From an uncultured Flavobacteriaceae bacterium (GTDB lineage: Bacteria > Bacteroidota > Bacteroidia > Flavobacteriales > Flavobacteriaceae): a stretch of DNA of 64,000 bases. Shown in pieces: positions 2 through 6,369 of the stretch. Under the pieces are notes generated by a model, which made no database searches, was not told the DNA's origin, and saw nothing but the letters and a program-made list of their open reading frames with translations. Position numbers and translations under genes: made by a program. The stretch spans positions 1-64,000 of the forward strand of contig CANMXP010000010.1 in NCBI GenBank assembly GCA_947501845.1, in the 5' to 3' direction. Every line of letters begins with the position of its first letter. The first letter of the stretch is position 1.

Positions 2-226
2 GAAACGGGTTCGGTTACTAATATGGCAAGCATGTTTAATCGTGCTACCAATTTTAACCAACCTTTAAATGATTGGGAAACGGGTTCGGTTACTAATATG
101 GCAAGCATGTTTAATCGTGCTACCAATTTTAACCAACCTTTAAATGATTGGGCTCTTGGAAATGTTACCAATATGAGCAATATGCTAGATCGTACAGCAT
201 TAACAAGAGAAAATTACGATACCACT
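2..226 (+). repeat. 75-bp BspA-like tandem repeats
   Basis: Two directly adjacent units of 75 bp (2-76 and 77-151) look identical base for base. A third, diverged unit starts at 152 (ALGNVTNMSNML). Each encodes 25 residues of the DUF285/BspA leucine-rich-like type. Identity at synonymous sites implies recent duplication or gene conversion. The array runs off the left edge, so copy number is unknown. Confidence 0.92.
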
Positions 227-3049
227 TTAATAGCTTGGTCAGGACAAACACTCATCAATAGAGTTACATTAGGTGCCCGAGGGGTACCATATTGCAATGC
301 ATTGAATGAAAGACAGTCTATAATTGACACTTATGGTTGGTATATTTTTAGTGATGTTTTTGATTGCCCTGTTTCTCCTAGCTGTACGGCTCTGTCGACA
401 CCAATAAACGGAAGCACAGATGTGGTCGTGGGGACGGACCTCAGCTGGAACGCAGCCGCAGGTGCCACGGGATACAGGATCAGCGTCGGGACATCTTCGG
501 GAGGGACCGAAATAATAAACGACCAGGACGTAGGCAATGACACCTCCCTAGACCCCACCTCAGACCTGCCAGAAAACAGAACCATATACGTGACCGTTAC
601 ACCTTACAATACCGTGGGAGACGCCACGGGATGCACACAGGAATCCTTCACCACGGAGACCCTGCCAACAGTGCCCGGGTGCACAACACTATCAGCACCG
701 CTAAACGGCGGTACCGATGTGGCCGTGGGAACGGACATCAGCTGGAACGCAGCCGCAGGTGCCACGGGATACAGGATCAGCATCGGGACATCTTCGGGAG
801 GAACCGAAATAATAAACGACCAGGACGTAGGCAACGACACGTCCCTAGCCCCGACCTCCAACCTGCCAGAAAACAGAACCATATACGTGACCGTTACACC
901 TTACAATACCGTGGGAGACGCCACGGGATGCACACAGGAATCCTTCACCACGGAGACCCTGCCAACAGTGCCAGCGTGTACGGCTCTATCAGCTCCGCTA
1001 AACGGCGGTACCGATGTGGCCGTGGGAACGGACATCAGCTGGAACGCAGCCGCAGGTGCCACGGGATACAGGATCAGCATCGGGACATCTTCGGGAGGGA
1101 CCGAAATAATAAACGACCAGGACGTAGGCAATGACACCTCCCTAGACCCCACCTCTGACCTGCCAGAAAACAGAACCATATACGTGACCGTTACACCTTA
1201 CAATACCGTGGGAGACGCCACGGGATGCACACAGGAATCCTTCACCACGGAGACCCTGCCAACAGTGCCAGCTTGTACGGCTCTATCAGCTCCGCTAAAC
1301 GGCGGTACCGATGTGGCCGTGGGAACGGACATCAGCTGGAACGCAGCCGCAGGTGCCACGGGATACAGGATCAGCGTAGGGACATCTTCGGGAGGAACCG
1401 AAATAATAAACGACCAGGACGTCAGCATTGCTACGACCCTAGACCCGACCTCCAACCTGCCAGAAAACAGAACGATATACGTGACCGTTACACCTTACAA
1501 TACCGTGGGGGACGCCACGGGATGCACACAGGAATCCTTCACCACGGAGACCCTCCCAATGGTGCCAGCGTGTACGGCTCTATCAGCACCGCTAAACGGC
1601 GGTACCGATGTGGCCGTGGGAACGGACATCAGCTGGAACGCAGCCGCAGGTGCCACGGGATACAGGATCAGCATCGGGACATCTTCGGGAGGGACCGAAA
1701 TAATAAACGACCAGGACGTAGGCAATGACACGTCCCTAGACCCCACCTCAGACCTGCCAGAAAACAGAACCATATACGTGACCGTTACACCTTACAATAC
1801 CGTGGGGGACGCCACGGGATGTACACAGGAATCCTTCACCACGGAGACCCTGCCAACAGTGCCAGCTTGTACGGCTCTATCAGCTCCGCTAAACGGCGGT
1901 ACCGATGTGACCGTGGGAACGGACATCAGCTGGAACGCAGCCGCAGGTGCCACGGGATACAGGATCAGCGTAGGGACATCTTCGGGAGGAACCGAAATAA
2001 TAAACGACCAGGACGTCAGCATTGCTACGACCCTAGACCCGACCTCCAACCTGCCAGAAAACAGAACGATATACGTGACCGTTACACCTTACAATGCCGT
2101 GGGGGACGCCACGGGATGCACACAGGAATCCTTCACCACGGAGACCCTCCCAACTGTACCTGGGTGCACAACACTATCAGCACCGCTAAACGGCGGTACC
2201 GATGTGGCCGTGGGAACGGACATCAGCTGGAACGCAGCCGCAGGTGCCACGAGATACAGGATCAGCGTAGGGACATCTTCGGGAGGAACCGAAATAATAA
2301 ACGACCAGGACGTCAGCATTGCTACGACCCTAGACCCGACCTCCAACCTGCCAGAGAACACAACCATATACGTGACCGTTACACCTTACAATGCCGTGGG
2401 GGACGCCACGGGATGTACACAGGAATCCTTCACCACGGAGACCCTCCCAACTGTACCTGGGTGTACTATCTTAGCTGGTCCCTTAAATATGTCTAATAAT
2501 GTAGCGGTAGACACTGATCTTAGTTGGAATTCTGTCGCCAATGCCACAGGCTACAGAATCAATGTGGGAACCTCATCTGGCATCTCAGATATTTTAAATA
2601 ATGAGGATATCGGTGATACCACGACCATAGATCTGCTATCGGATCTACCTGAAAATACAACAATATATGTAACCATAACACCTTACAACGCCGAAGGGGA
2701 TGCTACGGGCTGCACCGAGGAATCATTTACTACCGAAGAAATAATAGAGCCTTTAGTAGAATCAAAATATGGTTTTTCACCTAATGGCGACGGAATTAAT
2801 GATTTTTGGGAGATAAGAAGTATAGAAAATAGTCCACAGAATACCGTAGACATCTATAACAGGTGGGGAGATTTAGTTTTTTCAATCTCAAATTACAATA
2901 ATACTTCTAATGTATTTAGAGGTGAGGCAAACAACCTTAACAATATGGGAGCAAATACATTACCTAACGGAACCTATTTCTTTGATATCAAAATATCAGG
3001 AACCCATAACCTGAAAAAATTAAAAGGATTTTTAGTAATAAAGCGCTAA
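2..3049 (+). CDS. Giant surface adhesin (3' part): BspA-like repeats, FnIII-like repeats, type B T9SS sorting domain
   Basis: The reading frame is open to the left edge, so the N-terminus and signal peptide lie outside the window; the ATG at 23 is internal to a repeat and is not the start. In order: 25-residue BspA/DUF285-type repeats (NMASMFNRATNFNQPLNDW) and their usual capping segment up to about nt 380; eight Ig/fibronectin-III-like repeats of 99 residues (nt 383-2758), each with two Cys; then a gliding-motility-associated C-terminal domain (FSPNGDGINDFWEI, YNRWGDLVF, LPNGTYFF, ending VIKR), the type B type IX secretion signal. Family knowledge: such proteins are exported by T9SS and attached to or released from the cell surface, as with SprB. 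The PorP/SprF gene follows after 4 bp, as expected for a substrate/partner pair. Repeats 1-7 are strikingly GC-rich, unlike the flanks. The ligand is unknown; an adhesion role is inferred. Confidence 0.93.
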   Translation, partial: ETGSVTNMASMFNRATNFNQPLNDWETGSVTNMASMFNRATNFNQPLNDWALGNVTNMSNMLDRTALTRENYDTTLIAWSGQTLINRVTLGARGVPYCNALNERQSIIDTYGWYIFSDVFDCPVSPSCTALSTPINGSTDVVVGTDLSWNAAAGATGYRISVGTSSGGTEIINDQDVGNDTSLDPTSDLPENRTIYVTVTPYNTVGDATGCTQESFTTETLPTVPGCTTLSAPLNGGTDVAVGTDISWNAAAGATGYRISIGTSSGGTEIINDQDVGNDTSLAPTSNLPENRTIYVTVTPYNTVGDATGCTQESFTTETLPTVPACTALSAPLNGGTDVAVGTDISWNAAAGATGYRISIGTSSGGTEIINDQDVGNDTSLDPTSDLPENRTIYVTVTPYNTVGDATGCTQESFTTETLPTVPACTALSAPLNGGTDVAVGTDISWNAAAGATGYRISVGTSSGGTEIINDQDVSIATTLDPTSNLPENRTIYVTVTPYNTVGDATGCTQESFTTETLPMVPACTALSAPLNGGTDVAVGTDISWNAAAGATGYRISIGTSSGGTEIINDQDVGNDTSLDPTSDLPENRTIYVTVTPYNTVGDATGCTQESFTTETLPTVPACTALSAPLNGGTDVTVGTDISWNAAAGATGYRISVGTSSGGTEIINDQDVSIATTLDPTSNLPENRTIYVTVTPYNAVGDATGCTQESFTTETLPTVPGCTTLSAPLNGGTDVAVGTDISWNAAAGATRYRISVGTSSGGTEIINDQDVSIATTLDPTSNLPENTTIYVTVTPYNAVGDATGCTQESFTTETLPTVPGCTILAGPLNMSNNVAVDTDLSWNSVANATGYRINVGTSSGISDILNNEDIGDTTTIDLLSDLPENTTIYVTITPYNAEGDATGCTEESFTTEEIIEPLVESKYGFSPNGDGINDFWEIRSIENSPQNTVDIYNRWGDLVFSISNYNNTSNVFRGEANNLNNMGANTLPNGTYFFDIKISGTHNLKKLKGFLVIKR
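383..2758 (+). repeat. Eight 297-bp tandem FnIII-like repeats, seven GC-rich
   Basis: Units begin at the first Cys codon at 383, 680, 977, 1274, 1571, 1868, 2165 and 2462, an exact 297-bp (99-codon) period. Units 1-7 are nearly identical in DNA and use GC-ending codons (ATC, AGC, GAC, ACC, CTG, AGG, GCC). Unit 8 encodes a similar protein with the AT-rich codons of the rest of the gene. Units 1, 2, 3 and 5 carry a VGNDTSL variant; units 4, 6 and 7 carry VSIATTL. The 3-4 and 5-6 pairs suggest duplication of a two-unit block. Confidence 0.95.
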
Positions 3050-3053
3050 TCTA

Positions 3054-3989
3054 ATGACTAGAAAAAATAACTTTTCCGCTTATGCGGGAATCATCATACT
3101 ACTTTTTATTTTAAAAAGCAGCATTAGTGCTGGTCAGCAAACACCAACATTTTCTGAATACAATTATAATCCATTTATTATAAATTCGGCATATGCTGGT
3201 CTGAGCCCGAGTGCCGAAATGTCTATAAGTAATTCTGGTCATTTTAATCAGTTTGAAGGCAGTCCAAAAACCTTCTCTCTTAGTGGCCACACTCCTTTAA
3301 ATAGAGGAAAAATGGGTGTTGGCGCTGGCATTATTAGAGATGAAATTGGTGTAACAACCTCCACTAATTTTTTTGGAGCTTACTCTTATAAAATATTCTT
3401 CGATTTAGAAAATAATCGACCTTACTGGCAACATTATTACCCAGGCGTACTCTCCTTTGGTATTACCGCTGGTTTACAACAATATCAAGATAACCTATTA
3501 GAGCTGGGAATTACAAATGATCCTAATTTTTCTGAAAACATTAATGCTTCCATCCCTACATTGGGTTTTAGCTTCTTGTTTAATCATGCATCATTTTATG
3601 TTGGGTTTTCAACTCCAAACATTTTGGGAGAATCTTTAGCTTCTGATGATAATTTAAATCTAGCGACTCCCTATTACGGTTATATTGGATATCGTTTTTT
3701 TAGTAACCGCTACCAAGAAGTGATGATAAAACCCAATTTGCTTATAAAACATGAAGGCGGAGCACCATTGCAGGCCGATATAAACTTAGCTATAAGTTTT
3801 AAAAACAAGTTTGAAATAGGAACTGGATATAGGACAAAATCTTCACTAAATTTTTTGGCGGGAATTTATCTATTTAAAAATGCACGTTTTATATACAACT
3901 ATAATGCTACAAATAACAATTCTCCATTAGGCAACACCCATGGTTTTGTTTTAAATTATAAGTTTGGAGATGGCTATAGAATAGATTAA
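3054..3989 (+). CDS. PorP/SprF family type IX secretion system membrane protein
   Basis: 311 residues with an N-terminal hydrophobic segment ending SISAGQQ, a probable signal peptide. The mature start is typical of the PorP/SprF family (QTPTFSEYNYNPFIINSAYAGL; later GVGAGIIRDEIG, FGAYSYKI), followed by alternating amphipathic strands of an outer-membrane beta-barrel ending YKFGDGYRID. Family knowledge: SprF-like proteins are needed for secretion of the type B substrate encoded beside them (SprF for SprB). The gene starts 4 bp after the adhesin stop, so co-transcription and a dedicated partnership are likely. A strong hairpin terminator follows at 4015. The assignment is firm; the substrate specificity is inferred from position. 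Confidence 0.93.
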   Translation: MTRKNNFSAYAGIIILLFILKSSISAGQQTPTFSEYNYNPFIINSAYAGLSPSAEMSISNSGHFNQFEGSPKTFSLSGHTPLNRGKMGVGAGIIRDEIGVTTSTNFFGAYSYKIFFDLENNRPYWQHYYPGVLSFGITAGLQQYQDNLLELGITNDPNFSENINASIPTLGFSFLFNHASFYVGFSTPNILGESLASDDNLNLATPYYGYIGYRFFSNRYQEVMIKPNLLIKHEGGAPLQADINLAISFKNKFEIGTGYRTKSSLNFLAGIYLFKNARFIYNYNATNNNSPLGNTHGFVLNYKFGDGYRID

Positions 3990-4014
3990 AAAAAACAGAT
4001 CAAAATAAAAAATG

Positions 4015-4084
4015 AAAAAGGTGGACGAGTGTCCACCTTTTTGCCCCAAATCTACCATGAACTTAACCTACTTATGTTATGGTG
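4015..4084 (+). ncRNA. Hairpin plus conserved 44-nt trailer, copy 1
   Basis: A perfect 12-bp stem (AAAAAGGTGGAC / GTCCACCTTTTT) with a 4-nt GAGT loop spans 4015-4042 and ends in a T run, so it can act as the porP terminator. It runs into a 44-nt trailer (4041-4084, starting TTGCCCCAAATC, ending GTTATGGTG) that recurs identically at 4267. The trailer has its own imperfect inverted ends (ACCATGAAC / GTTATGGT). Structured RNA or processing-site function is inferred; the terminator role is the safer reading. Confidence 0.6.
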
Positions 4085-4236
4085 GTTCAAATATATGTTC
4101 TTTGTAAAGATTGATGAAATATTTTAGTTAAACTGCTTATATATTGGCTTAAACGGTCTTTTGAAAATTATTATAAAATTAAAAGGGAGAAAAAAACAAT
4201 TTTTGAAAATGGGCTTAAAAAGAAACTAAATTGCAT

Positions 4237-4310
4237 AAAAAAAGGCGAACAGTTGTTCACCTTTTTTTGCCCCAAATCTACCATGAACTTAACCTACTTA
4301 TGTTATGGTG
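4237..4310 (+). ncRNA. Hairpin plus conserved 44-nt trailer, copy 2
   Basis: A second hairpin (4237-4268; stem AAAAAAAGGCGAAC / GTTCACCTTTTTTT, loop AGTT, one C-A mismatch) precedes an exact copy of the 44-nt trailer (4267-4310). Relative to copy 1, one G-C pair has become A-T with pairing kept, a compensatory change, while the trailer is unchanged. Here the hairpin does not directly follow a gene, so it is not simply that gene's terminator. Confidence 0.6.
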
Positions 4311-4424
4311 AGACCAAGGTATGTGTATTTTAGATATTCTGATTATTTTTTAGATAAACAGCGTATTTTTTGGATTAAGTGTATTTTATCCCAGATTAAG
4401 TGGAAAGATCTAATAATTCAACAA

Positions 4425-6323
4425 TTAATAGGCACGCTCATTATTGCCTTCATAAAAGTTAATAAATGCTCTATTTACAACTCTATTCCCTCCTACAGTT
4501 GGATAGTTTCCTGTAAAGTACCAATCACCTAAATGGTCAGGACACGCTTTATGCAGGTTTTCTACAGATTGAAAGATAATTTTAACTTCTGCATTGATAC
4601 TTACATCACTTAATAGTTCTGAAATCTTATCCGATATTTCTTCATCAGTAAAAGGATCGTAAATCTCTTTTACAAAATTCTGTACATGCTTATCATCTAA
4701 ATCTGTTTGACTAATACACTTCTTGTATACATCTTCTACAATATGATATTTATTTGCATCCTTTAATAAACTTAAAGCTGCTCTAAAAGCAACCAAACCT
4801 TCAAGGTTGGCCATGTCTATACCGTAACAATCTGGATATCTAATTTGTGGTGCGGAAGAGACCACAATAATTTTTTTAGGATTTAGGCGATCGAGCATTT
4901 TTAAAATACTCATTTTTAATGTTGTGCCCCTAACTATACTATCATCAATAATAACAAGATTATCCTCTGGTTTTATAACACCATAAGTAACATCATAAAC
5001 GTGAGCGACTAAATCGTCGCGGCTACTATCTTCTGTAATAAATGTTCTAAGCTTAACATCTTTGATAGCAATCTTTTCAATTCGCGCACGCTCGGATAAT
5101 ATTTCTGTTACTTTTTCGGCAGACAATGAGCGTTGCCCACTTAAAATAGTACTGGTCTTCTTTTTGTTTATATATGCTTCAGCAGTTTCAATCATTCCAA
5201 AAAACGAAGTCTCAGCTGTATTTGGGATATACGAGAAAACCGTATTCTTAGTATCATTATTAATAGCATCAAGAACTTTTGGCATTAATAGCTTACCAAG
5301 CATTTTACGTTCTTGATAGATCTCAGCATCACTTCCTCTAGAAAAATAAATACGTTCAAATGAACAAGATTTCCTTTCTAAAGGTTCTAATATTTGTTTA
5401 AAACGAACTTCTCCAGATTTTTTAATAATGATGGCCTGTCCTGGATCCAATTCTTTAACACTTTCAAAGTTTACATTAAATACGGTTTGAATAACTGGCC
5501 GTTCTGATGCTACAACAACTATTTCATCATCTTTGTAATAGTATGCTGGACGAATACCTGCAGGGTCTCTTAAAACAAAAGAATCTCCATGACCAATAAG
5601 TCCAGCCATAGCATAACCTCCATCCCAGTTTTTTGCGGCACGCCTTAATATTTTGCCAACCTTTAATCGCTCTGCAATAAGAGGAGATGCCTCTCTTTTA
5701 TTATAACCCTCCTTTTTTAGGTCTTTATAAATCTTACTTACTGCATCATCTAAAAAATGACCGATTTTCTCCATAATAGTTATGGTATCGGTATATTCTT
5801 TTGGGTGCTGCCCTAACTGAATTAGGTTAGCAAAAAGTTCTTTAACATTTGTCATGTTAAAGTTTCCTGCCATTATTAAGTTTCTATGCATCCAATTATT
5901 TTGTCTTAAAAATGGATGCACACTTTCTACACTATTTTTCCCGAAAGTCCCGTAGCGGACATGGCCTAGTAAAAGCTCTCCTATATAAGGAATATGTCGC
6001 TTTTGTAAAGCAACATTATTAGCATACTCGGGGTGCTCTGTTAATTCCTTATTTATTCTTTCGTTTATCTGACCAAAAATATCCTGAATAGGCTGTTGTG
6101 CTACAGAACGCACTCTACTAATATAACGCTCACCAGGTTTTGTATCTAATTTAATACTTGCAAATCCAGCACCATCTTGCCCACGGTTGTGCTGCTTTTC
6201 CATCATAAGGTACATTTTATTTACCCCATAAAATGCACTTCCGTATTTTTCCTTATAATATTCCAGTGGTTTTAAAAGTCTAATAACTGCTATTCCACAT
6301 TCGTGTTTTAAGACATCACTCAT
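4425..6323 (-). CDS. purF: Amidophosphoribosyltransferase (glutamine PRPP amidotransferase)
   Basis: Catalyses the first committed step of purine synthesis, PRPP plus glutamine to phosphoribosylamine. The protein (632 residues from the ATG at 6323) begins MSDVLKHECGIA. The Cys is the expected N-terminal glutaminase nucleophile after removal of a short propeptide, so this ATG is preferred over the TTG at 6329. The Ntn glutaminase half carries NRGQDGAGFA and GHVRYGTFG. The phosphoribosyltransferase half carries the PRPP loop VIIDDSIVRGTT and the YPDCYGIDMAN segment. It is longer than the roughly 500-residue enterobacterial enzyme, as usual for the flavobacterial form. A 9-2-9 palindrome lies 47 bp upstream (6370-6389), and a terminator (6406-6437) separates it from the upstream kinase gene, so it probably has its own promoter. 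Confidence 0.93.
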   Translation of the reverse strand: MSDVLKHECGIAVIRLLKPLEYYKEKYGSAFYGVNKMYLMMEKQHNRGQDGAGFASIKLDTKPGERYISRVRSVAQQPIQDIFGQINERINKELTEHPEYANNVALQKRHIPYIGELLLGHVRYGTFGKNSVESVHPFLRQNNWMHRNLIMAGNFNMTNVKELFANLIQLGQHPKEYTDTITIMEKIGHFLDDAVSKIYKDLKKEGYNKREASPLIAERLKVGKILRRAAKNWDGGYAMAGLIGHGDSFVLRDPAGIRPAYYYKDDEIVVVASERPVIQTVFNVNFESVKELDPGQAIIIKKSGEVRFKQILEPLERKSCSFERIYFSRGSDAEIYQERKMLGKLLMPKVLDAINNDTKNTVFSYIPNTAETSFFGMIETAEAYINKKKTSTILSGQRSLSAEKVTEILSERARIEKIAIKDVKLRTFITEDSSRDDLVAHVYDVTYGVIKPEDNLVIIDDSIVRGTTLKMSILKMLDRLNPKKIIVVSSAPQIRYPDCYGIDMANLEGLVAFRAALSLLKDANKYHIVEDVYKKCISQTDLDDKHVQNFVKEIYDPFTDEEISDKISELLSDVSINAEVKIIFQSVENLHKACPDHLGDWYFTGNYPTVGGNRVVNRAFINFYEGNNERAY

Positions 6324-6369
6324 ATACAATTTTTTTCGCTTTCGCGGAAATCATAACTATTTATAGATT

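Follow-up and report, generated by a model that had tools for sequence, protein, structure and literature searches.

The locus lies within the window, the 64,000-nucleotide stretch of DNA that we analyzed, from an uncultured Flavobacteriaceae bacterium with a genome of 5.37 Mb in 75 contigs. A PorP/SprF-family gene on the plus strand (3054 to 3989) and a purF-like amidophosphoribosyltransferase gene on the minus strand (4425 to 6329) enclose two copies of an element, 226 nt apart (positions 1593 and 1819 of locus L001), each with a hairpin, at about 4015-4042 and 4237-4268, and the identical GCCCCAAATCTACCATGAACTTAACCTACTTATGTTATGGTG 3' of it on the plus strand. The purF-like gene is named by resemblance, scoring 121.5 bits against TIGR01134, which has a cut-off of 350. 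Directly upstream of porP, a long plus-strand ORF (23-3049) contains many repeats of ∼99 residues (297 nt) and perhaps encodes a secreted surface protein. A first-pass annotation made from the letters of this DNA had described two hairpins, each with a T run and followed by an unchanging trailer, and in this it was right: both copies lie where it placed them, the same trailer follows both hairpins, the G-C to A-T compensatory pair between the two stems is seen, and the ends of the trailer are complementary. A 33-nt trailer pattern allowing up to three mismatches matches only these two sites in the home genome, and 0 of 100 shuffles of the window produced a 21-nt core. The duplicated elements are not chance.

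Read on the minus strand, each copy presents, in order, direct-repeat boxes, a TAnnTTTG-like box, ACCAUAACAUAAGUAGGUUAAGUUCAUGGUAGAUUUGGGGC, and a terminator, and from this sequence anatomy is most likely a compact small-RNA (sRNA) gene of ∼70 nt that would be transcribed from that strand. The body, ∼44 nt long and nearly invariant, consists of a hairpin and a UUUGGGGC linker, with an intrinsic terminator after it. Upstream of the purF-proximal copy, the double direct-repeat boxes TTAATCCAA and GTTTATCTAAAA, with a period of 20 bp, match our strict double-box pattern at 4348 to 4378, and the −7 promoter-like box TACCTTGG at 4314 to 4321 has the form TAnnTTnG, one letter off TAnnTTTG. The RNA predicted from this copy is ∼72 nt long (4238 to 4309; match to model R1, described below, at 4238-4312 with 94.9 bits), its 5' end being placed by the position of the −7 box, and the predicted fold comprises a hairpin (4309-4280), the linker, and a terminator stem at about 4268-4237. 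The distal copy is preceded by the boxes TTAAGCCAA and GTTTAACTAAAA (4122 to 4152, again a strict pattern match) and by the −7 promoter box TATATTTG at 4088 to 4095; its predicted RNA of ∼69 nt (4015 to 4083; R1 match 4015-4086, 90.2 bits) has the same body and ends in a predicted terminator at 4042-4015. The general marks of a trans-encoded bacterial sRNA, promoter signals of its own (as consensus matches), an intrinsic terminator, an intergenic place, and conservation, are found together.

Further copies, which the first-pass annotation had expected a covariance model to find if the RNA were structured, proved to be numerous, with terminator stems that covary. Using model R1, built from 52 chosen copies, at E ≤ 0.001 and with 12 candidates per genome scored, we found matches in 317 of 397 sampled genomes of the family and in 197 of 237 genera, with one to seven per genome, often in tandem arrays; 80 of the 397 gave no match, and in 5 of the 317 the best E value lies above 1e-6 and the match may not be real. 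All 12 genomes of the genus, the home genome included, carry at least two copies. In a sample of the order, 45 of 296 genomes matched, comprising 41 of 50 family members (G610 weakly) and 4 of 246 others, a split taken from the order of the list. We take the family to be the Flavobacteriaceae because, with few exceptions, the named records listed come from that family or from unspecified Bacteroidota; among the matches listed, L072 belongs to a record titled Candidatus Rokubacteria and is perhaps a misassigned contig. When the window and 34 loci were scored jointly, real copies reached at least 69 bits and everything else at most 34.2. The four matches outside the family (31 to 34 bits in 246 genomes) were judged to be chance: L211 and L212 are missing core letters, and L213 and L214 are terminators directly 3' of unrelated genes. 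The core is also missing from L216, a 32-bit second match within the family. The sole match of G610 (L215, 1620-1700, minus strand, 32.7 bits) lies between purF and sod; it is strongly diverged and has probably decayed from a former sRNA copy.

The flanks of the copies provide evidence independent of the body, whose invariance is overstated in our set of 208 unique copies since these were gathered with an exact 18-nt core and variants exist. A TAnnTTnG box begins 13 to 15 nt before the core in 182 of the 208 (at −13 in 163, −14 in 14, and −15 in 5), compared to 8, 0, 7, and 3 of 208 at four control offsets, and 88 copies have the exact TAnnTTTG, described as the flavobacterial sigma-A −7 consensus in the part of PMC9723704 that we cite. 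Further upstream, a box of the form Cn(G/T)TTYRTCTAAAA is found 53 to 55 nt before the core in 257 of 271 upstream regions, dereplicated from 333, where the first box was sought between −62 and −45 only and the second freely; 185 of the 271 have their best second box at exactly 20 bp above the first, a number that drops to 6 when the letters are shuffled. Both promoter and body also vary with position in the array: one body letter is C in 58 of the 61 first copies and T in 48 of the 66 later ones, and the −7 box is TATATTTG in 39 of those 66 and mostly TAnnTT(G/A)G in first copies.

The layout known from LytTR-type promoters, two imperfect direct repeats ∼12 bp apart upstream of a promoter, is present here, with box letters that vary: nnKTTYRTC accounts for 149 of 271, nnGTTYRTC for 74, and the exact AlgR core CCGTTCGTC for 5. 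Boxes within two letters of that core number 83 of 271, compared to 1 of 1,897 stretches at other offsets. According to the passages cited here, a LytTR site commonly consists of a pair of direct repeats 11 to 13 bp apart (AlgR, PMC4064291; HdrR/BrsR, PMC6193735), although the AlgR review also notes that AlgR's own sites need not be such direct repeats (PMC4064291). Our boxes resemble these sites in being two ∼9-bp direct repeats before a promoter with letters near CCGTTCGTC, but 11 bp separate the 9-bp boxes, where the same passages give 12 as usual and 11 or 13 as a minority. By this resemblance, the candidate class of regulator is most likely LytTR. The home genome has 22 LytTR matches and two sites of the strict double-box pattern, one before each of the two genes, a count that indicates rarity and is no proof of a dedicated regulator, since the pattern was derived from the very two sites that it matches.

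We consider it probable that the two copies are tandem paralogous sRNA genes on the minus strand that are activated by a regulator and act by base pairing in trans. Each copy would be transcribed from its own sigma-A-type promoter, with a TAnnTTTG-like −7 box and no clear −33 box; a regulator, most likely of the LytTR type, would bind the two direct repeats and activate it; and the RNA of ∼70 nt would stop at its own intrinsic terminator. The invariant loop AGUAGGUUAA and linker GAUUUGGGGC would be exposed as seeds and pair in trans with mRNA leaders, that of gldL being one candidate, while several copies would raise the dosage and perhaps permit different promoter tuning. Comparison of the sequences shows the anatomy, the strand, the conservation, the covarying terminator, and the synteny; transcription, activation, the identity of the regulator, the mode of pairing, and the targets we infer.

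The terminator varies as a paired stem should: changes on both sides occur in 8 of its 14 pairs, with 59 such cells against a mean of 17.8 after shuffling, and when the partners are slid, paired cells fall from 96.8% to 33 to 60%. In the body helix, 9 of 11 pairs show no variation at all, and covariation is therefore no proof of this helix. Since the body stem varies less than a seed alone would need, and several copies per genome would increase dosage, the main action of the RNA might instead be to bind or sequester a protein, with the hairpin and GGGG linker as the protein site. CsrB and 6S are RNAs that work in this way. We regard this explanation as unlikely, given that the variants CATTAGTAGG and CATAATTTTTAGTAGG (another genus) change the inner three stem pairs and keep the loop AGTAGGTT, which fits a single-stranded seed, and that it has no candidate partner: the home genome has no match to Hfq or RRM_1, and a search with PF00076 (RRM-1, as in RbpB) found nothing there while detecting the Bacteroides control. 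The absence of Hfq and RRM_1 matches also weighs against the pairing model that we prefer.

The first-pass annotation had read the plus strand, with hairpin and T run following porP and the trailer after them. On that strand the copies would terminate a convergent gene whose transcript has a conserved tail in its 3' UTR. A and T tracts flank the hairpin, which could terminate both ways; porP or sod is convergent on it; and the distal copy (4015-4085) folds slightly better on the plus strand (−26.9 kcal/mol, z −4.3) than on the minus strand (−25.0, z −3.3). The proximal copy (4237-4310) folds clearly better on the minus strand (−33.0 kcal/mol, z −5.2) than on the plus strand (−22.8, z −2.6), a C·A mismatch in its plus-strand stem becoming a G·U pair on the minus strand. 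Across the terminator stems of the 52-row alignment, read on the minus strand, there are 40 G·U against 8 A·C; with a cruder stem finder on the 208 copies (177 G·U, 80 A·C, and 358 other non-pairs) the strand is less clear. A simple terminator scan returned one site, in the distal copy on the minus strand, and nothing on either strand of the proximal copy. On the minus strand the promoter box and double boxes keep a constant spacing, and inner copies of arrays have no adjoining convergent gene, which together make plus-strand terminators very improbable. The original suspicion of a structured or small RNA, beyond a plain terminator, is supported by the many further copies with covarying terminator stems, but with the strand reversed: the −7 box and the direct repeats, the sequence in which the parts follow one another, and the use of G·U pairs all point to the minus strand, and by sequence what had been called the trailer is the 5' body of the RNA and the hairpin with T run its 3' terminator.

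The neighborhood of the copies is also conserved. At most assessable arrays, the sRNA genes follow purF and face sod in the order purF > sRNA(s) > < sod. Among 117 public loci listed (at least 118, minus L142, which we took to repeat the array of L012; a few have a contig in common), 99 have a same-strand purF no more than 1 kb upstream, 8 have too little DNA, and 10 have no purF there. Downstream, 134 of 157 neighbors in L034-L220 belong to one convergent protein cluster, although some of these loci overlap and not all are independent; at L219, a locus of that cluster, and at L215, the downstream gene is an Fe/Mn superoxide dismutase by Pfam. In the genus, porP stands beside the array in 8 of 12 genomes (3-kb loci), and sod lies within the 3-kb loci of genome G006 (L009, L021, and L030). 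Three Salinimicrobium loci (L083, L084, and L103) have a single copy between sod and a gene that we take to be recJ-like. Some genomes carry extra copies away from the main array (L008, L015, L028, and L033); that of L015 (31-1444) is convergent with adjoining genes for a histidine kinase and a LytTR response regulator, a possible candidate for the regulator, and by eye the ORFs closest to the copies at L008, L028, and L033 are unlike such genes. Copies in public arrays are spaced by 140 to 299 nt, or by 70 in a partial duplication. At L141 (minus strand, near 1776-2091), one sRNA copy was truncated by a tandem duplication, its body running into a second promoter region. L217 (G536, C4:179085-180128) has undergone a recent local amplification: it holds five copies 240 to 243 nt apart, and the promoters of four are almost the same.

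Because they are short, repeated, and complementary at their ends, with up to seven model matches per genome, the copies might be taken for a repeat at the DNA level, a mobile element or recombination site with no RNA gene. We find this most improbable, since the copies are mostly at a single, unscattered locus (of 109 loci that could be assessed, 99 have purF upstream), promoter and terminator are in register, and the stem changes are two-sided. That the RNA is the mRNA of a very short gene, its body ATG opening MVDLGQ in 195 of the 208 copies, is likewise most improbable: the letters are invariant in any case and so give no coding signal, one-base insertions (GGTAAGATT) yield MVRFGA in other copies, and the remaining frame falls in the variable terminator.

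Complements of the putative seeds were sought as possible target sites. The linker complement GCCCCAAAT occurs at 43 sites in the home genome including the two sRNAs (41 non-self), against 18 for the reversed control; of 30 loci examined, the 28 non-self sites are mostly antisense inside ORFs, with one leader site. At this site (L237, about position 1500), GCCCCAAAT stands immediately before the point where a probable lipoprotein gene begins; one such site is about chance level by hand estimate, and we set it aside as a target. The gene sod fared likewise, the duplex of the body with the sod start (−15.3 against −13.9 shuffled, 128 starts) being hardly better than its control. The loop complement TTAACCTACT is rarer than its reversed control, with 8 home-genome sites including the two sRNAs against 25, and from the 6 non-self sites we afterwards chose one in the gldL leader, a 12-nt perfect complement to the loop starting 44 nt before gldL. 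Both gldL and gldK score above their own NCBIfam cut-offs.

We compared gldL leaders from 50 of the 146 gldL-matching genomes, namely the 30 closest and 20 hand-picked further down, the others between being skipped. TTAACCTACTTA is found in 19 of the 30 close leaders and in 0 of the 20 more distant ones, even though the loop of the sRNA hardly varies. The mean loop-leader duplex is −13.8 against −6.2 for shuffled sequences in close genomes and −9.1 against −8.0 in distant ones. In the 95 nt before gldL (L261-L290), most leaders of close relatives have a hairpin of their own, TTAAGTA-n-TACTTAA, immediately 5' of the start codon, and by eye a change in L283 looks compensatory. This local hairpin (pattern in 21 of the 30 close leaders) overlaps the gldL site, and part of the conservation of this site may therefore have another cause. 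By sequence, the gldL leader, belonging to the type IX secretion motor, is a candidate for one target, in close relatives alone. A bolder form of the proposal, in which this is a core sRNA system of the Flavobacteriaceae, driven by a dedicated LytTR two-component system that serves this array alone and reprogramming the cell surface, including the GldKLM type IX secretion and gliding motor (in the clade of the window, by way of the gldL leader), with no recognizable Hfq, we hold to be doubtful.

Comparison with Rfam, for which the first-pass annotation had named Flavo-1 as a possible family, brought no family at the cut-off over the whole window; the region 3900-4450 gave 26 weak matches up to E 10, Flavo-1 not among them. 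The best of the 26, STnc40, reaches 26.8 bits against a cut-off of 45, and membership of FopS (RF04319) is rejected at 21.3 bits (E 0.76) against 56. In its logic, the proposed sRNA may be comparable to PrrF, LhrC, or FopS, a comparison that does not imply homology. FopS/GibS of Bacteroides (RF04319), as portrayed in the cited portions of PMC11697453, are of the same phylum and likewise multicopy sRNAs of ∼65 to 70 nt that have sigma promoters and are conserved in their 5' part, and FopS pairs near mRNA starts (PMC11697453). They differ in having 14 copies of mixed genomic context, and their partner RbpB has an RRM-1 domain (same portions of PMC11697453), for which the home genome has no RRM_1 match. 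PrrF1 and PrrF2 of Pseudomonas aeruginosa are nearly identical tandem sRNAs with sodB as a target, sod being the usual neighbor of our sRNA, but are under the control of Fur and heme, by the extracts cited from PMC7948967, and are absent from the Rfam matches here. LhrC1-5 of Listeria, by the partial account that we draw on, are several homologous sRNAs under the response regulator LisR; they belong to another phylum and are likewise absent from our Rfam matches. The seeds and the type of regulator of LhrC differ from those proposed here.

Closest in taxonomy are the Rfp RNAs of Flavobacterium psychrophilum (PMC9723704) and the F. columnare candidates (PMC5395568), which are of the same family and have the same TAnnTTTG −7 box in the cited sections of these papers; Rfp18 is described there with a third stem-loop (PMC9723704), whereas one copy here has two. 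Our sequence and locus were not found in main texts of the literature, the Rfp sequences being in supplements, and a mapped Rfp or F. columnare transcript may be this RNA. A search for the sequence string gave a 12-letter string in mammalian papers alone, and one combining purF, sRNA, and Flavobacterium gave papers unrelated by title. By these comparisons, the RNA would form a family of its own within an established class, the multicopy tandem sRNAs, with a specific candidate for its type of regulator and for a target.

The two genes probably belong to a widespread, uncharacterized gene regulator, found in about four-fifths of the sampled genomes of the family with a body almost unchanged and yet without an Rfam family. 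To our knowledge, few sRNAs have been characterized in Bacteroidota outside Bacteroides. The sections of PMC11697453, PMC9723704, and PMC5395568 cited here give the same picture. Since the locus is defined and both the activator site and the candidate target can be put to the test, the regulon could be worked out in a laboratory strain, and the finding raises the question of how sRNAs pair in this lineage, in which the one genome tested had neither Hfq nor an RRM protein.
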